This document shows, one piece after another, positions 4,493 to 14,248 of a stretch of 52,303 nt of DNA. This stretch comes from Candidatus Hodarchaeota archaeon. GTDB lineage: Archaea; Asgardarchaeota; Heimdallarchaeia; Hodarchaeales; Hodarchaeaceae. The number at the start of each line of letters is the position of its first letter. The first letter of the stretch is position 1. The translations under genes and the position numbers were made by a program. Below the pieces are notes generated by a model that did not search any database, was not told the DNA's origin, and saw only the letters and a list, made by a program, of their open reading frames with translations. The DNA lies in assembly GCA_016839785.1 (NCBI GenBank), contig JAEOTQ010000114.1, positions 1-52,303 on the forward strand, given 5' to 3'.

Positions 4493-5941
4493 CTAGTATG
4501 TACCTGCTTTTGAATCAGTTCCTTTAACAATAGCTATGGAAGCAGAAGCTCCTATTCGAGTCGCTCCTGCGTTAATCATCTGTTCCGCAATTTCATGTGT
4601 TCTTATTCCTCCAGCAGCCTTTACACCCATTTCAGGACCTACTGTTTTTCGCATAAGTGCAATATCCTCCACTAACGCGCCTGCAGTACTGAATCCTGTT
4701 GATGTCTTGACGAAGTCAGCTCCGCTTAATTTGGTAAGTAGACTCCCTTTCACAATTTGTTCCTTAGTAAGCAAAGCCGTTTCAAGAATAACTTTAACTA
4801 TTGCTTTCCCAGCAGCAGCATTCACAACAGCTTGTATATCCTGGCGGACAAGGTCATCATTTCCCGATTTTAACGCTCCAACATTAATGACCATATCTAC
4901 CTCCTCCGCGCCATTTGCTATGGCATCACGAGTTTCTATTGCCTTTACAGTGGGAGTTGTAGCTCCTAAAGGAAAACCTATAACAGTACATACTTTTACT
5001 GAGCTACCCTTCAAATATTTTGCGGCTTTCGAAACATTCGTTGGATTAATACAAACTGATGCGAAATTATACATAGCTGCTTCTTCGCATAACTTTTTAA
5101 TCTCCTCATCCGTCGCATCCGCCCGTAAGTTGGTATGATCGATATGCTGAGCTAAATCTATATCGTATCCATTAATCCCTGTTTCAGAGGTAATTCGAGT
5201 GGCTCCTCCATTGACTAATGCCTTGACAGCAACTTGAGATTTCCCATCTACTCCAATATCTTTTCCCGCAGTACCAATGGTATAGGAACGATTGGATGTT
5301 GTCGGAGTGTAAGGGGATGGTTCTTGATCAGACAAATTATGAACATTTACCATTCTTATTCCCATGGATGTCAACTGATCGATAACCCCGTCAATTTTTC
5401 GATTCATAGCTGGGGGCACTTGATCTTTCTCAATTTGACAGCAGTAGATAGAGTCTTGAGCAGCAATAACAGGTTTCCCATACATTAATCCAAAAACCAT
5501 TGTTATTGTGCCTAGAGAGTCAGCGTTTAATGCTGCAACCTTTGCTGCAGTATTTAAGGATAGAATAGGAACATATATTACATCAATCCGTCCTAAAATG
5601 TTGTCAAAATACTCCTCAGAATATTCAGTAATAATAGTTGCTCCTTCAGAAACTTTTCTGACATCAGGCATTCCAATAATTTTGATAGCTGCCCGAGTCA
5701 TGACTATGTACGTATTTGTATACGTTTTTGATATAATTTCTATTTGACGCATGACTTCCTCTATTTCTCGATTTCCACCACATAATAGAATTAACGCTGA
5801 GTTTCCTGAAGATATTCTATAGTTAATTTTCTTGTTAGAAGTCTGTAGATTCTGATTTGTTTGTCTCGCAGAGGAAAGATTATCTTGGTCCAATTTTCGC
5901 ATAACTTCTTCTGTTATTTTTTGAATCATCTCATTACTCAA
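4493..5941 (-). CDS. deoC: Flavoprotein-like domain fused to deoxyribose-phosphate aldolase (BMC cargo)
   Basis: The C-terminal half (about residues 258-475) is a class I DeoC aldolase, which splits 2-deoxyribose-5-phosphate into glyceraldehyde-3-phosphate and acetaldehyde. Visible catalytic residues are Asp349 (EEVDMVIN), the Schiff-base Lys412 (FVKTSTGF) and Lys441 (VKAAGGIRT). Residues about 45-205 form a separate alpha/beta domain resembling the flavoprotein-like proteins found in BMC loci. It is paralogous to the stand-alone protein at 11339-12058, and both share the G-[IF]-R-[ML]-V-N-V segment. The first 20 residues ([13 protein letters not shown]) form an amphipathic helix typical of encapsulation peptides, followed by a polar linker. 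The start is TTG at 5941 with AAGGTG five bases upstream; ATG at 5929 would also keep the helix. The protein is about twice the length of ordinary DeoC. It is probably the signature enzyme that supplies aldehyde to the compartment. Confidence 0.93.
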
Positions 5942-5960: not shown

Positions 5961-6251
5961 TTAACTTAATTCAGTCTGTTTACCGTCTACTTCGACATAA
6001 TCCACAACACCTACTATCAAAGCATCAACGGCAGCGTTATCATCATTCATTATACCCCGGATAGAATTTCCTTCTCGGATTACGAGGACGCAATCCCCTA
6101 TTCCAGCTCTTGATACGTCTAATGCGATGATAGAGGCGTCAGTAAACTGTCCTTTCAAATCTATCGGACGTACTACAAGTATTTTTCCATTTTCATGACT
6201 TTTAGTCTTTATTGGGGCGACGACATTCCCGATGACTTTAGCTAGAATCAT
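5961..6251 (-). CDS. BMC-P shell vertex protein (EutN/CcmL family), copy 3
   Basis: A 96-residue EutN/CcmL-family pentamer subunit, which caps the vertices of a polyhedral shell. It begins with the family hallmark [13 protein letters not shown], continues through [10 protein letters not shown], and has [16 protein letters not shown] in place of the common D-x-x-G-A-G-x-G-x-x-V-L-V motif. It ends with [16 protein letters not shown], the usual C-terminal strand. Its ATG overlaps the TGA of the preceding BMC-P gene by four bases (ATGA), which suggests translational coupling and co-stoichiometric synthesis of the two vertex proteins. It is one of three BMC-P genes in this operon. Confidence 0.95.
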
Positions 6252-6790
6252 TCTGATTCACTCTCTGTAAGCTTAGGTTCGATTTCCTTTATCTTTTTTG
6301 TTTTTTTCTTCCTAGTAGCTCTTTTTCTAGGTTTGGACTTAGGAATTGGTTTTGATATCTCATCTACCTCAGTAGGCGATATTTTAGATTTAGGTATTGG
6401 TTTTGAAGTTATGTCGATTTCCGTGTCAATCTCTTTCTTTTTAGAAAACTGATCTAGAGGTTTTATTGTTGGTGGAGGAGCTTTCTTCTTTTTCCTCTGC
6501 TGAGGTTTTCGTTTCGCACTCTTTGTCACATAATATTCCTCTATATACCCTACAATACACTCATCGATCGGTACAAGCTCTTTAGGAAAGACAATAGCCG
6601 CTTCCTTTTTACTGACAACATACACAATATCTCCTGGTCCAGCGGTTTCAATTCCATCAGCAGCAACATAAGGGTTCCCTAAGGGTTGAAGATTATCATC
6701 CAAGCCCTGTACTACTAGAAGTCTTAAAGAATCGAGACCTGGGTCTTTCGTTGTAGCAACTACATTTCCTATTACTTTACCAAGTTTCAT
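6248..6790 (-). CDS. BMC-P shell vertex protein with long basic C-terminal tail, copy 2
   Basis: The first roughly 90 residues are a BMC-P (EutN/CcmL) domain: [42 protein letters not shown] and IVGYIEEYYV. After it comes a tail of about 90 residues that is unusual for this family. The tail is strongly basic and proline/serine-rich. It contains two copies of SKPIPKSK separated by about ten residues, KKKK and RKKKTKK clusters, and a short acidic end. I chose the ATG at 6790, not the upstream in-frame start at 6823, because it begins exactly at the conserved MKLGKVIGN N-terminus and avoids overlap with rpiB, whose stop is at 6795. The tail looks disordered. It could bind nucleic acid, polyphosphate, membrane or another scaffold; this is inference. 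Confidence 0.93.
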   Translation of the reverse strand: MKLGKVIGNVVATTKDPGLDSLRLLVVQGLDDNLQPLGNPYVAADGIETAGPGDIVYVVSKKEAAIVFPKELVPIDECIVGYIEEYYVTKSAKRKPQQRKKKKAPPPTIKPLDQFSKKKEIDTEIDITSKPIPKSKISPTEVDEISKPIPKSKPRKRATRKKKTKKIKEIEPKLTESESE

Positions 6791-6794
6791 GTTA

Positions 6795-7253
6795 TCACGC
6801 TGACTTAAGATATTTCGTTTCAATTTCAGAAATTTTATTCACTCTTGTTTCGTGCCTTCCTCCACCAAATGGAGTAGTTAACCAGATTTTTACAATATTC
6901 TGTGCTATACCAGGACCAATAACTCTTGCTCCTAAGGTCAGAACGTTGGAATTATTGTGTTCACGGGCAGAATTGGCAGTAAATTCATCAGTGCACGGAG
7001 TCGCCCTAATACCTTTGATTTTATTTGCCACAATCGCGCTAGCCACACCTGTTCCATCTATAAGTATGCCAACAGATTCTAACGAGACAGAAACAGTCTG
7101 TGCAACTAACAATGCAATGTCAGGATAATCTACAGGATCTGTAGAGTAACACCCATAATCTGACACTTCGTACCCCATTCCTTTAAGGAATTTAATCAGA
7201 TCATTCTTTAGGTGAAATCCACCATGATCGGATCCAATAATAATTTTCTTCAT
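6795..7253 (-). CDS. rpiB: Ribose-5-phosphate isomerase B-type sugar-phosphate isomerase
   Basis: A 152-residue RpiB/LacAB-family isomerase, which interconverts ribose-5-phosphate and ribulose-5-phosphate or related sugar phosphates. It has the N-terminal GSDHGGFHLK (His10), GILIDGTGVASAIVANK, GIRATPC and HNNSNVLTLGARVIG (His99). At the position of the catalytic cysteine of E. coli RpiB (GILICGTG) this protein has Asp66 (GILIDGTG), so substrate preference or the acid/base residue may differ. It lies inside the BMC operon between the BMC-T and a BMC-P gene. That combination with DeoC matches what are called sugar-phosphate-utilising BMC loci in bacteria. I see no encapsulation peptide, so localisation is unclear. 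Confidence 0.93.
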   Translation of the reverse strand: MKKIIIGSDHGGFHLKNDLIKFLKGMGYEVSDYGCYSTDPVDYPDIALLVAQTVSVSLESVGILIDGTGVASAIVANKIKGIRATPCTDEFTANSAREHNNSNVLTLGARVIGPGIAQNIVKIWLTTPFGGGRHETRVNKISEIETKYLKSA

Positions 7254-7279: not shown

Positions 7280-7825
7280 TTACAGCAACGTTTTTACTAA
7301 ATCTGGATGAGGAGCAGGAATAATAGCTATAGATAATACTAAGCCTTCGCCCTTTACACGATTAACTCCCGCATCTACAGCTGCTCGTACAGCACCAACA
7401 TCTCCTGTTAAGACGACGAATGCCTTACCACCAATAGCACGACTCATTCGGATTTCGATTAAACGTACCTGTGCACTTTTAACAGCCTCATCACCCACCA
7501 TTATGGCTGTAGGAGCGGAATATGTTTCAACTACTCCTATTGCACCGACCTCATCAATACCAGTCGAACCTGCAATTGCTAGGAATACCTCAGGATGAAT
7601 ATTGGGTATTACTGTATAATTTACTAGTGTTTCACCAGCGATCTCACTTCCAGCAATTAAGGAGCTTTTAACAGCTGCAACTGCTCCCTGAATTATTATC
7701 AAATATTTCCCAGGGCATACTGGTGAGGCAAATAATAGCTCCACATCAGCAGTTTTGACTATTGTGTCTGCGCTCAATATACCACGAGCAATTACATTTG
7801 TTTCTAGAACTCCTATAGCACGCAT
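7280..7825 (-). CDS. BMC-T tandem-domain shell protein, PduT-like with Fe-S pore cysteine
   Basis: A 181-residue protein with two BMC folds in tandem: residues 1-90 beginning MRAIGVLETN, and 93-181 beginning VGAIGVVETYSAP. Such proteins form trimeric pseudohexameric shell tiles. In the first domain ASPVCPGKY places Cys37 at the position of Cys38 of PduT, which in that family co-ordinates a [4Fe-4S] cluster at the three-fold pore. The second domain ends in the canonical AIIPAPHPDLVKTL. The ATG is preceded by AGAGGA. Together with the RnfC/PduS-like protein encoded two genes upstream, it is a good candidate for an electron or Fe-S conduit through the shell. The Fe-S assignment rests on this motif only. 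Confidence 0.95.
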   Translation of the reverse strand: MRAIGVLETNVIARGILSADTIVKTADVELLFASPVCPGKYLIIIQGAVAAVKSSLIAGSEIAGETLVNYTVIPNIHPEVFLAIAGSTGIDEVGAIGVVETYSAPTAIMVGDEAVKSAQVRLIEIRMSRAIGGKAFVVLTGDVGAVRAAVDAGVNRVKGEGLVLSIAIIPAPHPDLVKTLL

Positions 7826-7901: not shown

Positions 7902-8180
7902 TCAGCCTTTCTTGGGGAGAATGCTCTCAACCTCATCATGAGGTCGAGGGATTACATGAGCTGAAGTTAGTTCACCAACTTTTCTTGCAGCAACTGCGCC
8001 AGCCTCAACAGAAGCTTTAACAGCACCAACGTCACCTCTAACCATCACAGTTACGAAACCACCGCCAATAACTTCGCGTCCCATTAGATGAACGTTCGCT
8101 GCTTTCACCATTGCGTCAGCTGCTTCAATAGATGCAACTAACCCTTTTGTTTCTATTAATCCAAGTGCTTCTTTAGCCAT
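7902..8180 (-). CDS. BMC-H hexameric shell protein (PduA-like), copy 2
   Basis: A 92-residue single BMC-domain protein that forms the hexameric facets of the shell. The family pattern is complete: [27 protein letters not shown], the pore segment [23 protein letters not shown], and the C-terminal [16 protein letters not shown]. The pore loop carries an extra glycine (GGG) compared with the GSG of PduA. The ATG at 8180 is preceded by GGTGA at a normal distance. It is the closer match to canonical PduA of the two BMC-H genes and is probably the major shell component. Confidence 0.97.
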
Positions 8181-8206: not shown

Positions 8207-9532
8207 TTATTTTGTCTTTTCAATGACAATTTCTTGTCCAATATGTCGGATAACTCCACTAATACTAGCATGAATTACCGCGCCTAGCGACCCATCAGGG
8301 ATCTTCCCAATGAGCGCTCCTTTTTCTACAGTCTCTCCTACTTTCACAATAGGAATAGCAGGATCACCGATATGTTGCTTGAGAGGTATAGAGACTTGTT
8401 TAACCTGTATTTTCCGTTTTTTAATTGGACAATCATGATCATAATTGAGTAAATCCAATCTTGATATTAGTCTCTTCACAGGTAGCTTTCGATATTTCCT
8501 CTCAGGATGAATCGATAGTACTTTCCGAGTATGAGTATTTTTTAACCCCTCCCCTCTCAATTGCCCTTTTACTTCTGTCATCATTTTACATGGATCTAAA
8601 CCCATAGGGCATCCATAGTATGTACAGGCTCCACATTCCACGCAGAGAAATGTTCCAGTCATATATTCAGGCCTTTCAGGAGCTCCCCATGCTATCCCTC
8701 GCATGACCTTATCAGGATATAATTCATGACCTAGTAAATATCTAGGGCATACTTCTGTACATAATTGACAGCGTATGCAAGCAGCCTTGGTAACTATTAC
8801 CTTAGATGAAATTCGTTCATTTTTCATCCTCACCACAAAATGATCCTCTGGTAAAACGATTACTCCGGAGGTTAACTTTGTAATAGGCTTTTTAGGATCA
8901 ATAATTCTACCCATCATTGGTCCGTTGATTAACACTTGATAGTCATCAATAGTGGCTCCTCCAGCGGCTTTGATAGTATCCAAGATCGAAGTACCAATTG
9001 GGAACTCCATAGTTGAGGGATTTTTTACTGCGCCTGTCACTGTTACATATCTAGACACGATTGGTTTCCCTTCAGAAGCTTCAGCAAGATTTATCAATGT
9101 ATATACATTATTCACCACAACCCCTATATCAAGTGGAAGTCCACTTTCAGGAATTATCTTTCCTAAGGCTTCGTAAACTAGAACATGTTCATCTCCAGCA
9201 GGATAAACATCTTCCAAAAGGAAAATCTCTATACGAGAATCAGCTTTAATCGCTTGTGTAAGTTTTTTAATTGCATTTTTGTATTTTCTCTTTACAGCAA
9301 TGATTCCCCTCTTTGCCCCTGTGGCTTTCATCCCTAATTGTAGTCCATGTACTAGTTTTTCAGGGTAAACTTTCATTAATTGCTGATCAACCCTTAACAG
9401 AGGTTCACATTCAGCTGCATTTACGATATAAGTTTGAACTTTCGCAGAAAGTTTCACGTGAGTGGGAAATCCAGCTCCGCCTGCTCCAACTATACCGGAA
9501 TTGCGTGCCATTTCTGCGATGGTTGAAGTCAA
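8207..9532 (-). CDS. RnfC/PduS-like flavo-iron-sulfur electron-transfer protein
   Basis: A 441-residue protein of the RnfC/PduS group. It has the glycine-rich N-terminus NSGIVGAGGAGFPTHVKL, a NADH/FMN-type core, and a SLBB-like segment (VTVTGAVKNPSTMEFPIG). Two [4Fe-4S] motifs are clear: C252-x2-C255-x2-C258-x3-C262 and C297-x2-C300-x2-C303-x4-C308. The last 70 residues form a barrel-sandwich/lipoyl-like end (VKVGETVEKGALIGKI). PduS of the propanediol BMC is a cobalamin reductase and a shell-associated electron carrier. No cobalamin enzyme is present here, so re-oxidation of NADH from the aldehyde dehydrogenase, with electrons passed to the PduT-like shell protein, is the simpler idea. The start is TTG at 9532 with an AGAGG-like site upstream. 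Confidence 0.9.
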   Translation of the reverse strand: MTSTIAEMARNSGIVGAGGAGFPTHVKLSAKVQTYIVNAAECEPLLRVDQQLMKVYPEKLVHGLQLGMKATGAKRGIIAVKRKYKNAIKKLTQAIKADSRIEIFLLEDVYPAGDEHVLVYEALGKIIPESGLPLDIGVVVNNVYTLINLAEASEGKPIVSRYVTVTGAVKNPSTMEFPIGTSILDTIKAAGGATIDDYQVLINGPMMGRIIDPKKPITKLTSGVIVLPEDHFVVRMKNERISSKVIVTKAACIRCQLCTEVCPRYLLGHELYPDKVMRGIAWGAPERPEYMTGTFLCVECGACTYYGCPMGLDPCKMMTEVKGQLRGEGLKNTHTRKVLSIHPERKYRKLPVKRLISRLDLLNYDHDCPIKKRKIQVKQVSIPLKQHIGDPAIPIVKVGETVEKGALIGKIPDGSLGAVIHASISGVIRHIGQEIVIEKTK

Positions 9533-9559: not shown

Positions 9560-10987
9560 CTAAATTATTCTAAACGCATCTACAAGAACACATCTTCTTT
9601 GACGTGTAAACGTTCTCGCAGATGTTATTCCTTCACCTGTTGGACCTGCTATCGTCATTGTCGTAAATCCTTCTCCTCCAAACCCGATCCCTGCTAATGA
9701 GGGAGCATTTTTTACGAATATAGTTGTCTCAATATTTTTTGCGACAAGACTCATATTGCCAACAGAATCACTCCACATCATAGCTGTATGTTTAAATCCA
9801 TGTTCTGCTTTCTTGGCTTTTTGTAAAGCTTCTTCTATTGATTTAACTCGAACTATCGGTAACACAGGCATCAGCATTTCAGATATTACAAAGGGATGCT
9901 CGTCATCAGGTACTTCGGCAATTATTAGCTTAATATTATCACTGACCTGAATGCCAATTCCCTCAAGAATCACTTTTGCATCTTTACCGATGAAGTCCCT
10001 ATTTACAATCGGAAATCTTCCTTTTTTCCCAGTGAATACAAGATTAGCTAATTGAATAATCTGATCTCCTGTAATCTCGTAGGCACCATAATTCTTCATT
10101 TCGGCTTTCAATCGATCAGTAATGCTATCAAATGCAAAAACTTCTTTTTCCACGATACAAACAATATTATTATCAAAACTTGCACCCTCTACAATCCCTC
10201 TTGCTGCTTTTTGAATATTTGCAGTATCGTCAACGATCACAGGCGGATTTCCTGGACCTGCACAGACGGTTTTCTTTCCAGATTGCATGGCAGCCTTTAC
10301 GACTGCGCTTCCTCCAGTCACTACAAGACACCTGATTTTTTTATGTGTCATAAGTGTTTGAGCTGACTCAATTGTAGGTGAAATTGTGGATGTGAGTACA
10401 TTTTCTGGCCCTCCAGCTTCAAGAATTGCCCTATTCAATAACCTTACCGCTTCATTACTCGCACGTTTTGCTGAAGGATGAGGGTTAAAAACCACACTGT
10501 TTCCTGCAGTGACCATTGATATTCCATTATTGATCACGGTTGCAGTCGGATTTGTAGAAGGTGTTATTGATCCAATTACTCCATATGGAGCCATTTCTAC
10601 AAGAGTTAGTCCCTTATCACCTGTCCAAGTGTTTGGAACTAAATCTTCCAGTCCTGGGGTTTTACGTGCGCATAGTAAATTTTTAGCTACTTTATCCTCT
10701 AATCGGCCAAGATTGGTTTCTTGAACTGCTAGTTCAGCTAGATATCGGGCGTGCTTGATTACGCCTTCACGCATAGATTGAATAATGTCTTTTCGTTTTT
10801 CGAGCGAGAGATCCATTAAGGCTATTTGGCTCTTCTCAGCTGCTTCAATAGCTTGTTCTATATCCTGAAAAATGCCTCCGCCTGCAGTTGCTGGAAGATT
10901 TTCTAATCCCGAATAAACTTGATAGGCACGAATTTTTTGTACAACAGTATTGACAATCTTGGCAATTTGTTGTTCATCATATGTCAT
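9560..10987 (-). CDS. CoA-acylating aldehyde dehydrogenase (PduP/EutE family), BMC cargo
   Basis: A 475-residue enzyme that oxidises an aldehyde (probably acetaldehyde) with NAD+ and CoA to the acyl-CoA. The N-terminal 23 residues (EQQIAKIVNTVVQKIRAY) form an amphipathic helix like the PduP encapsulation peptide and are followed by a short glycine-rich linker. The ALDH core has PYGVIGSITPSTNPTAT, the nucleotide-binding VTGGSAVV, AGPGNPPVIVD, and the catalytic Cys277 in DNNIVCIVEKEV. It ends in GEGFTTMTIAGPTGEGIT and the C-terminal RRCVLVDAF typical of BMC-associated ALDHs. Its neighbours are BMC-P upstream and the PduS-like protein downstream. With DeoC supplying acetaldehyde, it is the central oxidative step of the compartment. 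Confidence 0.96.
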   Translation of the reverse strand: MTYDEQQIAKIVNTVVQKIRAYQVYSGLENLPATAGGGIFQDIEQAIEAAEKSQIALMDLSLEKRKDIIQSMREGVIKHARYLAELAVQETNLGRLEDKVAKNLLCARKTPGLEDLVPNTWTGDKGLTLVEMAPYGVIGSITPSTNPTATVINNGISMVTAGNSVVFNPHPSAKRASNEAVRLLNRAILEAGGPENVLTSTISPTIESAQTLMTHKKIRCLVVTGGSAVVKAAMQSGKKTVCAGPGNPPVIVDDTANIQKAARGIVEGASFDNNIVCIVEKEVFAFDSITDRLKAEMKNYGAYEITGDQIIQLANLVFTGKKGRFPIVNRDFIGKDAKVILEGIGIQVSDNIKLIIAEVPDDEHPFVISEMLMPVLPIVRVKSIEEALQKAKKAEHGFKHTAMMWSDSVGNMSLVAKNIETTIFVKNAPSLAGIGFGGEGFTTMTIAGPTGEGITSARTFTRQRRCVLVDAFRII

Positions 10988-11036: not shown

Positions 11037-11327
11037 TTATTTTCTGTATGTTTCCTTTCCATTTATTTGAATAAAATCGATTATGGCTTGAATTGTTGCA
11101 TCAGTTGGACGATCTTTTGTCATTGCAGTTAAACGAGAGGAACTTCCTGTAACAACTAAGACAAGTTCCTCTTCTCCTGCACCTACAGCATCAATTGCTA
11201 CGAATGGAGAACTCTCAGGTTTCAGATCAGTCATATCCACTGGTTGGACAATGAGAAGGGTAAAACCTTTAATGCCTGCATCTTTTTCTGTGCTAACTAC
11301 ATTTCCAATAACTTTACATACTTTCAT
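11037..11327 (-). CDS. BMC-P shell vertex protein (EutN/CcmL family), copy 1
   Basis: A 96-residue pentamer-type shell protein. It has VCKVIGNVVSTEKDAGIKGFTLLIVQP, then the family signature AIDAVGAGEEELVLVVTGSSSR, and ends in DATIQAIIDFIQING. It is the most canonical of the three BMC-P proteins. The ATG is preceded by AGGTGAT, a strong archaeal Shine-Dalgarno sequence. It lies between the flavoprotein-like gene and the aldehyde dehydrogenase gene. Confidence 0.96.
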   Translation of the reverse strand: MKVCKVIGNVVSTEKDAGIKGFTLLIVQPVDMTDLKPESSPFVAIDAVGAGEEELVLVVTGSSSRLTAMTKDRPTDATIQAIIDFIQINGKETYRK

Positions 11328-11338
11328 GTTTTTATCAC

Positions 11339-12058
11339 CTAAATCTTTATAATTTTAATATCAAGAAGTTTGGCTTTTTCTTGGGCTAATGGTGTTATAA
11401 CTGTGGAATGAGGTACAAAAATTTCATGAGATTTTCCTTGTAAGCTTTCTAAATAATCTTCTGTTATTAAATCTGGTATTGATGGGGTATGTTTCATGAA
11501 TTGATCAGCCAAATCTTCAACATTAACCAATCTAAATCCCATTTCAATTAAAATTGATAACCGTCTACTTAATTCATTTGTTAACATACCAGATGGTCCA
11601 TAATCAAAAGTTAAATCCGTTGGAGGAAATGGTGTTGCTATATAGACTGGAATTTTGGATAATAATCCTTGGAGTAATAAATTGACGGTAGGATTCGAAT
11701 CTTCTAGACTAGTAACTTTTTTAGCAATTTCAAAACTAAAAGCACCATACATTATGGATTCAAGATCATTATAAAATTTTAAACAGAAATCTCCCGTTGG
11801 ATTAACAATGATATCCATAGTAGGAGTTGAACTAGCTCGTGATGTGAATTTCAAGGCTTCGTCTATCTCTTTTCTAGTCCATACAAGAATCTTCATATTT
11901 TTTTGAGCTAATCTGATAAGAGTTACAAATAATTCTTCCAACCCTTGGCCCATATGGGTTAATATTCCTAATACACTATAGGGGCCTCGTGTCTGGTTAC
12001 TTGTGAGAACATTCCGAACTTGTTGAGATACAAGTGATTCGAGTTCTTTCTCATCCAT
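11339..12058 (-). CDS. BMC-associated flavoprotein-like protein
   Basis: A 239-residue protein of no proven function. The N-terminus (EKELESLVSQQVRNVLTSN) is an amphipathic helix like the encapsulation peptides of the other cargo proteins here. The core is an alternating alpha/beta domain related to the N-terminal domain of the DeoC fusion. Shared features are a region around IMYGAFSFEIAKKV, corresponding to [15 protein letters not shown], and the G-F-R-L-V-N-V-E segment followed by D-L-A-D-Q. The C-terminus HSTVITPLAQEKAKLLDIKI resembles the V-T-P-x-A-x-D-x-A-x-x-x-G-I end seen on many BMC-encoded accessory proteins. Candidate roles are flavin binding or a scaffold for cargo. It follows BMC-H copy 1 by 16 bases. 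Confidence 0.7.
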   Translation of the reverse strand: MDEKELESLVSQQVRNVLTSNQTRGPYSVLGILTHMGQGLEELFVTLIRLAQKNMKILVWTRKEIDEALKFTSRASSTPTMDIIVNPTGDFCLKFYNDLESIMYGAFSFEIAKKVTSLEDSNPTVNLLLQGLLSKIPVYIATPFPPTDLTFDYGPSGMLTNELSRRLSILIEMGFRLVNVEDLADQFMKHTPSIPDLITEDYLESLQGKSHEIFVPHSTVITPLAQEKAKLLDIKIIKI

Positions 12059-12074
12059 AACCTTTACCTTCTAT

Positions 12075-12386
12075 TCAATCTCTACCAGGATCTTCGTGAA
12101 CACTTTGAGTAGGTAGTCTAACTTTTTCTATTAATTCAATAGTTACATTATCAGGCCGTGGAATTACATTGGTTAGAATTCCACAGGAAATTCGCCGTAA
12201 TTGTTTTTTTGCCGCATTGATTGCTTCATTAACCGCGGCTACCTCGCCTTCAATGATTACTATAACTAAACCACCAGAAACTCGTTTTAATGATATTAAA
12301 TTGATATTAGCCGCTTTTAACGCTGTATCTGTGGCCACAATTGCTCCAATACGGCCACGTGTCTCCATAAATCCTAGAGCATCCAT
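12075..12386 (-). CDS. BMC-H hexameric shell protein, copy 1
   Basis: A BMC-domain protein of 103 residues beginning MDALGFMETRGRIGAIVATDTALKAANI. The pore segment is RVSGGLVIVI, and EGEVAAVNEAINAA and NVIPRPDN complete the fold. A C-terminal extension of about 15 residues (LPTQSVHEDPGRD) exceeds the minimal family length. I use the ATG at 12386: the in-frame GTG at 12395 lies inside the AGGTGAT Shine-Dalgarno sequence and would overlap the stop of the preceding gene at 12392. Differences from copy 2 in pore and surface residues suggest mixed facets with distinct permeability. Confidence 0.95.
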   Translation of the reverse strand: MDALGFMETRGRIGAIVATDTALKAANINLISLKRVSGGLVIVIIEGEVAAVNEAINAAKKQLRRISCGILTNVIPRPDNVTIELIEKVRLPTQSVHEDPGRD

Positions 12387-12391
12387 AAGTA

Positions 12392-14248
12392 TCACCTGAA
12401 GGGGGAATATGACTTCTCATCAAAATCCGAAATGAGCGTTCCCATGTCTCCTGTGTTCAATGCGAGGGCATTTCCCTCGTCTAAGTCTAAGTGTAACTCC
12501 AAATTATAGTCTGGATGAACTCTTACTTTAACTTCATCTAATATACCTGCACGTGTTCCTGGAAATTTAACTGCCACCATCTGTTTGTTAGATACGTTTA
12601 ATCTCTGTGAATCAGTTGGTGACATATGAATATGTCGTGCGGCAAATATTACTCCCTTGTCTAATGTAATTGCACCCTTTGGTCCCATAACATTGATTCC
12701 AGGTGTCCCCTCTAAATCCCCCGAATGTCTTGTAGGAGGGTTAATTCCTAATACATACCCATCGCTACGTGAAATTTCGATTTGTGTTTCATCACGAAAA
12801 GGGCCAAGAACTCTTACTCCGTATATTGCCCGTTTTGGACCAACAAGATCAACAACCTCCTCACAAGCAAACTCTTTACGCTGTGATAAGGAGTTAAGAG
12901 GATGCAACTTCTCTTTTTCTCCAAAAAGTTTGTGAAAATCAGTTTTAGTTAAATGAATATGCCGAGCTGATAAAGAAACTGGGATTAGCTGATCACTAAG
13001 GACTTTAGTTAATTCCTGAGTAATGATCTGCTTAACTAATTTGTCATTATTTACAACCGTATTTCTTTGTGTGATTGGTGTAAATTCACATCCTAATGGG
13101 CCACAGTATCTTCCGACATATTCCGCAGAGGGTCGATATATCACGGGTTTAATGGTTGGGGTTTCTGGGTATTTCTCTTCTAATACATGTGCGGTCCATC
13201 CAGCAACTCTAGATGTTGTAAAAATCGGAGTAAAAAGTTCTACAGGTATATTAAGACTTGTATACACTGTAGCCCCGTATAAATCCACATTAGGATAGAT
13301 ATCTCGATTTTTTCGCTTTTTAAATTCCTTTTGAGTTATATCAACCATCTGATTTGTTGTCTCGAACATCCATTGAGCAAACCCACCGTTTTTTTTCACA
13401 AGTTCTGCGGCCATTTCCTTTAATATATTAGCTCTTGGATCTATTGTTTTATAAATCGCATGTCCCATTCCCATAATTCGTTTGCCTTTATCAAAACGAT
13501 CTTTTACCCAATCTTCAACATTAGACATCTTTTTAATTTCTAAAAGGCTCTCATATACAAGATGATTTGCGCCTCCATGATATTTTCCAGATAAGGAACC
13601 TATTGCTCCTGAAATTGAAGCATATAGATCGGCTCCAGTGGAGGCTATTACTCTTGCAGTAAAAGTAGATGCATTGAAAGAATGTTCAGCATGAAGTACG
13701 AGTGTAACATCAAAAATTCGAGCCTCTTCCTTTGATGGTGTTTTTCCATGAAGCATGTACAGGAAATTTGACGCATAAGCAAGATTTTTGTTAGGGGATA
13801 TTGGTTCGTTATTGTTTCTTATACGTTCCCATGCCGTGACAATAATAGGTAGAAGAGCAATAATCCTAATAGCAATGTTACGATCAGTTTCTCTTGTTTC
13901 TGTTTCAACTTCAGCATCATATCCGGCTAAGAGGGCAAGCGATGACTGAAGGACACTCATTGAAGGGGTATTTTTTGCAGTTTTCTGTAAATGAATGAGT
14001 AATTCTGGAGGAAGCTCTTGATTTGATTTTATTGTAGACTCAAAGACTTTCAATTGATCAAAAGAAGGTAGTTTTCCATATAAGAGTAAGTATACTACTT
14101 CTTCGTAAGTTGAATTCCTTGCTAGATCCTTAATATCATACCCTCGGATGAAAAGATTTCCTTTTTCTCCTTCAATCAGGCATATATTTGTATCCGCAAC
14201 CTCAACACCACGAAGTCCAGTCGATTTGTGGCTATGTTCTTCAAGCAT
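12392..14248 (-). CDS. Citrate synthase-PduL phosphotransacylase fusion (BMC cargo)
   Basis: A 618-residue bifunctional protein. Residues 1-395 are citrate (or 2-methylcitrate) synthase with all catalytic residues visible: His224 (YHGGAN), His263 in MGMGHAIYKTIDPRA, and Asp322 (PNVDLYGA). The substrate arginines are in DPRA, SRVAGWTAH and YRPSAEY. Residues 396-421 form a linker that contains an amphipathic helix (KLVKQIITQELTKVL) resembling an encapsulation peptide. Residues 422-610 are a PduL-type phosphotransacylase with both metal-binding motifs, SARHIHL (His430/432) and AARHIHM (His539/541), plus VLGPFRDETQIEISR and LHLDLDEGNA. Both domains release free CoA from acetyl-CoA, giving citrate or acetyl-phosphate. 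It is the first gene of the BMC operon, and its ATG lies about 57 bases from a TATA-like box. I know of no described protein with this architecture. Confidence 0.95.
   Translation of the reverse strand: MLEEHSHKSTGLRGVEVADTNICLIEGEKGNLFIRGYDIKDLARNSTYEEVVYLLLYGKLPSFDQLKVFESTIKSNQELPPELLIHLQKTAKNTPSMSVLQSSLALLAGYDAEVETETRETDRNIAIRIIALLPIIVTAWERIRNNNEPISPNKNLAYASNFLYMLHGKTPSKEEARIFDVTLVLHAEHSFNASTFTARVIASTGADLYASISGAIGSLSGKYHGGANHLVYESLLEIKKMSNVEDWVKDRFDKGKRIMGMGHAIYKTIDPRANILKEMAAELVKKNGGFAQWMFETTNQMVDITQKEFKKRKNRDIYPNVDLYGATVYTSLNIPVELFTPIFTTSRVAGWTAHVLEEKYPETPTIKPVIYRPSAEYVGRYCGPLGCEFTPITQRNTVVNNDKLVKQIITQELTKVLSDQLIPVSLSARHIHLTKTDFHKLFGEKEKLHPLNSLSQRKEFACEEVVDLVGPKRAIYGVRVLGPFRDETQIEISRSDGYVLGINPPTRHSGDLEGTPGINVMGPKGAITLDKGVIFAARHIHMSPTDSQRLNVSNKQMVAVKFPGTRAGILDEVKVRVHPDYNLELHLDLDEGNALALNTGDMGTLISDFDEKSYSPFR

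Follow-up and report, generated by a model that had tools for sequence, protein, structure and literature searches.

A citrate synthase–PduL fusion heading a microcompartment operon in one genus of Asgard archaea, a putative lumenal acetyl-CoA branch point

A survey published in 2019 placed bacterial microcompartments (BMCs) in bacteria and described them as absent from archaea, and the main text of the 2021 BMC catalogue of Sutter et al. deals with bacterial phyla only and mentions neither citrate nor archaea (PMC8217296). The window analysed here, a stretch of 52,303 nucleotides from a Hodarchaeota genome, carries BMC shell genes and, at their head, one frame encoding both a citrate synthase and the phosphotransacylase PduL. 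The locus raises the question of what the first enzyme of the citric acid cycle might do in a microcompartment, and whether the arrangement is genuine. The open-access literature yielded no report of BMCs in Asgard, Heimdall or Hod archaea, the co-mentions being off topic, and no paper that brought BMC, PduL and citrate synthase together or described citrate synthase as BMC cargo. An initial sequence-only reading had stated that it knew of no such cargo or fusion, and none appeared in that literature.

The operon and its shell genes

The fusion gene is the first of a 13-gene operon on the minus strand, of which six genes encode shell proteins representing the BMC-H, BMC-T and BMC-P classes. 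The coordinates previously assigned to the fusion frame were exact; the strand, which had been left unstated, is minus. The features are listed below in operon order, with the parts of the fusion following the whole.

12392–14248, minus strand: citrate synthase–PduL fusion, 618 amino acids (aa), ATG start, one frame
13109–14218, minus strand: citrate synthase domain, aa 11–380, catalytic H224, H263 and D322
12983–13063, minus strand: linker, aa 396–422, amphipathic helix
12434–12982, minus strand: PduL phosphotransacylase domain, aa 423–605, zinc ligands H430, H432, E491, H539, H541 and H586
12075–12395, minus strand: BMC-H shell protein 1, likely ATG start 5 nt past the fusion stop, or GTG start with a 4-nt overlap
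11339–12058, minus strand: 239-aa protein, encapsulation-peptide-like N-terminus, TPLAxEKA C-terminal motif, weak UbiX/flavoprotein-like fold match
11037–11327, minus strand: BMC-P (EutN/CcmL) shell vertex protein 1
9560–10987, minus strand: CoA-acylating aldehyde dehydrogenase (AldDH, EutE/PduP-like), encapsulation-peptide-like N-terminus
8207–9532, minus strand: PduS/RnfC-like electron-transfer protein
7902–8180, minus strand: BMC-H shell protein 2
7280–7825, minus strand: BMC-T (double BMC domain), conserved PduT-like CPGK cysteine
6795–7253, minus strand: RpiB ribose-5-phosphate isomerase
6248–6823, minus strand: BMC-P 2, basic C-terminal extension
5961–6251, minus strand: BMC-P 3
4493–5941, minus strand: DeoC deoxyribose-phosphate aldolase, aldolase at aa 263–472, N-terminal extension of ∼260 aa
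3301–4482, minus strand: acetate kinase AckA

In the 2021 catalogue, DeoC and RpiB define the sugar-phosphate utilisation (SPU) type of BMC (PMC8217296). The operon is of this type, containing DeoC (PF01791), RpiB (PF02502), AldDH and shell genes, and an assembled shell is predicted. The likeness to the SPU loci described there extends to the DeoC-type aldolase, RpiB, the CoA-acylating AldDH, a PTAC and shell proteins including several BMC-P; the locus differs from them in its archaeal host and in the fusion of PduL to citrate synthase. To our knowledge, the SPU metabolosome chassis is known, while the citrate synthase cargo, the fusion and the Asgard host are new.

Gene order was kept in six further loci. 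No AckA was seen within the portion retrieved of one of them (G006), and in another (G010) the fusion is represented by two genes. The operon of a further genome (L012, G005:C1, 8706–9325) breaks off after the BMC-H gene and a partial 239-aa gene, through decay or misassembly. No alcohol dehydrogenase was seen among the operon genes. The CPGK cysteine of the BMC-T protein is as in PduT, and with the adjoining PduS-like gene this makes electron exit through the shell probable. By eye, the 239-aa protein resembles the N-terminal extension that precedes the DeoC aldolase: both are Rossmann/flavoprotein-like with an encapsulation-peptide-like N-terminus, and neither gave a confident Pfam or NCBIfam match. 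The structural model of the 239-aa protein was of modest quality (pLDDT 63), and its UbiX-like fold matches were weak, none having E < 0.001.

Two complete domains and an internal helix

A domain search, proposed in the sequence-only reading as a check, found two domains in series, a complete citrate synthase followed by a complete PduL. The Pfam profile Citrate_synt aligned over 356 of its 357 positions with residues 11–368 (E 1e-122), and PTAC/PduL over 175 of its 176 with residues 423–597 (E 2e-69). The catalytic residues His224, His263 and Asp322 were exactly as first read, and His189, Arg272, Arg347 and Arg372 were also present; all of these are invariant across the seven fused homologues. 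With a full domain, the catalytic His/His/Asp and the substrate-binding arginines, the N-terminal half has the sequence features of a Si-citrate synthase, and the corresponding activity is predicted. The catalytic triad and three arginines are shared with archaeal/type II enzymes (1iom, 6abx and 1aj8), from which the clade of the fusion differs in being tied to a BMC operon and joined to PduL. The best NCBIfam match of this half was the mixed subfamily cit_synth_II, just below cut-off (412.9 versus 421.3 bits).

The PduL half scored above the curated cut-offs of both PTAC (233 versus 25 bits) and PRK15070 (242.6 versus 209), and the two HxH motifs noted in the sequence-only reading, H430/H432 and H539/H541, are in place. 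In PduL of R. palustris the zinc ligands are His48, His50, Glu109, His157, His159 and His204, to which Arg103 is added (PMC4784909). Their counterparts in the fusion are H430, H432, E491, H539, H541 and H586, with R485 for Arg103, so that by alignment the two-zinc ligand set and the phosphate-contacting arginine of the known enzyme (PF06130; 5cuo) are all present.

BMC-type PduLs carry an encapsulation peptide at the N-terminus (PMC4784909). In the fusion, by comparison with R. palustris PduL, the encapsulation-peptide-like helix is internal, lying where BMC-associated PduLs have the N-terminal peptide and behind a citrate synthase of 395 aa. This linker helix ranked 2 to 25 among ∼600 windows by hydrophobic moment, and the split PduL of G010 aligns with it at its own N-terminus, the encapsulation-peptide region. 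These data suggest that the citrate synthase was placed upstream of the targeting helix, which would then act from an unusual, internal position. Encapsulation peptides have been described at N- or C-termini (PMC12339742, PMC8217296), and an internal one may therefore not work.

The Asgard genomes compared are uncultured metagenome-assembled genomes (MAGs), and the fusion might be suspected to be an artefact of assembly. The earlier description of an uninterrupted frame held, the frame being stop-free through both domains in seven independent genomes, including a single-contig chromosome of 4.94 Mb. The fused genomes include contigs of Heimdallarchaeota B3_Heim and of two Hodarchaeota MAGs and the single-contig chromosome CP070695 (Hodarchaeota lineage). 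The fusion is not an assembly join. The six fused homologues are 64–84% identical to the window protein, and dN/dS was ∼0.04–0.14 in both the citrate synthase half and the PduL half (close pairs, several with dS near saturation). Judged from these ratios, strong purifying selection acts on both halves, which argues that the architecture is under selection and that chance read-through is unlikely. An AlphaFold model of the fusion (seven sequences) was too poor for use (pLDDT 44).

Distribution and related citrate synthases

Of the 228 Asgard genomes, 8 contain shell domains (PF00936), and these belong to a single Hodarchaeia/Heimdallarchaeia genus; the PduL family (PF06130) exceeded its cut-off in the same eight. 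Seven of these carry the fusion; the eighth, G010, has adjacent citrate synthase and PduL genes with stops between them. Both trees group the split proteins with those of G008, which has the fusion, although one does so weakly, and two changes are thus needed whether the fused or the split state is older. When 396 genomes from the phylum of a MAG labelled Acidobacteriota were searched, the matches listed included no fusion, and in 72,556 plasmids no match covered 80%.

In the citrate synthase tree, the fusion clade and the split enzyme of G010 lie far from the other stand-alone enzyme of the genus. The latter is encoded between PrpB and PrpD, both of which exceed NCBIfam cut-offs, and on this gene context it is the methylcitrate synthase PrpC. 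A complete PrpB–PrpC–PrpD operon was observed in some members (L017, L016). The second citrate synthase of G001 and G006 was considered as a housekeeping enzyme and rejected, as it is PrpC in the prp operon. The fusion lies outside the prp operon, PrpC being a separate gene. The larger citrate-synthase-containing proteins of the genus are ATP-citrate-lyase-like, and in the single-contig G006 the citrate synthases other than the fusion are PrpC and ATP-citrate-lyase-type proteins.

In G000 (the window genome), G002, G008 and G011 the searches detected no PrpD and no second stand-alone citrate synthase of full length, the latter search covering the Si type as distinct from the Re-citrate synthase of isopropylmalate-synthase type; these MAGs are 83–89% complete, so both absences are unproven. 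BMC-free members of the genus are without this citrate synthase, and G003, G004 and G007 have no full-length stand-alone enzyme of its kind, which indicates that it goes with the operon. The window genome contains two aconitases, an isocitrate-dehydrogenase-like gene and ATP-citrate-lyase-like genes. Its aconitase AcnA adjoins a citF-like citrate lyase alpha subunit (L145, G000:C245, 843–5501).

The nearest relative found of the fusion's citrate synthase is a 507-aa citrate synthase from a Myxococcota MAG (L025, P0001), its sister in the tree (98/95). It carries encapsulation-peptide-like helices and, beyond the citrate synthase domain, a tail that, compared with one sequence, shares 37% over 43 aa (E 3e-6) with the C-terminal end of the operon's 239-aa protein and weakly matches the ethanolamine-utilisation family TIGR02536 (E 2e-5, below the family cut-off). 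By sequence likeness the tail by itself links this enzyme to BMCs. No PduL was found in the same MAG, although it has an SPU-like locus encoding DeoC, AldDH, PduS and shell proteins. That locus (L155, G228:C330) also includes triosephosphate isomerase, a class II aldolase and two copies of PduS. In contrast to the fusion, the tail is not PduL and the gene lies outside any BMC operon on a small contig, whose length of 3.5 kb makes the binning uncertain. A search for the tailed citrate synthase in 395 genomes from a different phylum, and in the four other genomes sampled from the MAG's own, found none. The remaining citrate synthases among the best 80 lacked a comparable tail, and the flanking DNA examined contained no BMC genes next to them.

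A putative acetyl-CoA branch point in the lumen

We consider it reasonably probable that the fusion is a bifunctional lumenal enzyme of an SPU-type metabolosome, placed at the branch point of acetyl-CoA. DeoC would cleave deoxyribose-5-phosphate to glyceraldehyde-3-phosphate and acetaldehyde, and the aldehyde dehydrogenase would convert acetaldehyde to acetyl-CoA using a trapped CoA pool. The PduL half would then form acetyl-phosphate and CoA, from which AckA would yield acetate and ATP, while the citrate synthase half would use acetyl-CoA and oxaloacetate supplied by the cytosol to form citrate and CoA. Citrate would leave the shell for the aconitase, isocitrate dehydrogenase and ATP-citrate lyase of the cell, and electrons would exit through the PduS/PduT-like pair. 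The encapsulation helix of PduL, now an internal linker, would draw the fusion into the lumen. The CoA-regenerating branch point advanced in the sequence-only reading stands as the best reading of a fused protein with intact active sites that heads a BMC operon; the catalysis, encapsulation and citrate export that it took with it, like the passage of oxaloacetate and citrate through shell pores, are deductions from sequence. Beyond that reading come the Asgard host, the confinement of its BMCs to one genus, the encapsulation-peptide-like linker, the split version and the bacterial relative with a BMC-associated tail.

It is unlikely, with some evidence in its favour, that the fusion is instead the general citrate synthase of the cell, and in some members the only one, working mostly outside the shell, with PduL attached for co-expression and the place in the operon reflecting shared regulation of acetyl-CoA use. 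The MAGs with no second enzyme detected, together with the complement of G006, are consistent with a protein serving the whole cell from the cytosol. However, the enzyme is missing from BMC-free members, it is joined to PduL through an encapsulation-like helix, and its bacterial relative also has a BMC-associated tail. A 2-methylcitrate synthase, using propionyl-CoA from propionaldehyde in the compartment, is improbable: the mixed subfamily of the best NCBIfam match and the naming of PduL for propionyl-CoA would accord with it, but the pathway enzymes, through DeoC, yield acetaldehyde. This role, for which propionyl-CoA assays had been suggested, was made less likely by the separate prpBCD operon of some members and by the four fusion-bearing MAGs in which PrpD was undetected.

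Citrate synthases are dimers, and a catalytically silent half that only aids PduL oligomerisation or packing of the enzyme core might be imagined. The oligomer state of PduL does depend on its N-terminus (PMC4784909). Such a role is nevertheless decidedly improbable, as the catalytic residues checked are all invariant and this half has a dN/dS as low as that of PduL. Reversed citrate synthase occurs in some anaerobes, and imported citrate might be cleaved to supply acetyl-CoA to PduL and AckA; that reaction is thermodynamically unfavourable, its net yield of ATP being small or nil, the operon supplies its own acetyl-CoA, and we regard this direction as very improbable. Bacterial contamination or an assembly chimera might be proposed for MAGs bearing a structure otherwise described in bacteria, yet it is scarcely credible for a gene present in seven independent genomes, one of them a single-contig chromosome, and on a window contig that also carries archaeal aIF2-gamma, aIF5B, Trm1, EF-2-like and Rio2-type genes.

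Returning to the lumenal branch point, we propose more tentatively that one Asgard genus possesses a true metabolosome with the first reaction of the citric acid cycle inside the shell, exporting acetyl units as citrate through what is possibly the sole citrate synthase of several members, and that a bacterial lineage did likewise, independently or ancestrally. Peroxisomal citrate synthase and the mitochondrial citrate shuttle export acetyl units from their compartments as citrate. The microcompartment would work alike; those are membrane organelles with no fusion, and the comparison is an analogy with no claim of descent.

If this is true, the metabolosome is more than a device for gaining energy from the conversion of aldehyde to acid and would connect straight to the citric acid cycle, which would explain how carbon held as acetyl-CoA in the lumen can enter central metabolism instead of being lost as acetate. 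One protein would make both the permeability of the shell to tricarboxylates and the function of internal encapsulation helices testable. Protein organelles of bacterial type would also occur in Asgard archaea, which are among the closest known relatives of eukaryotes.
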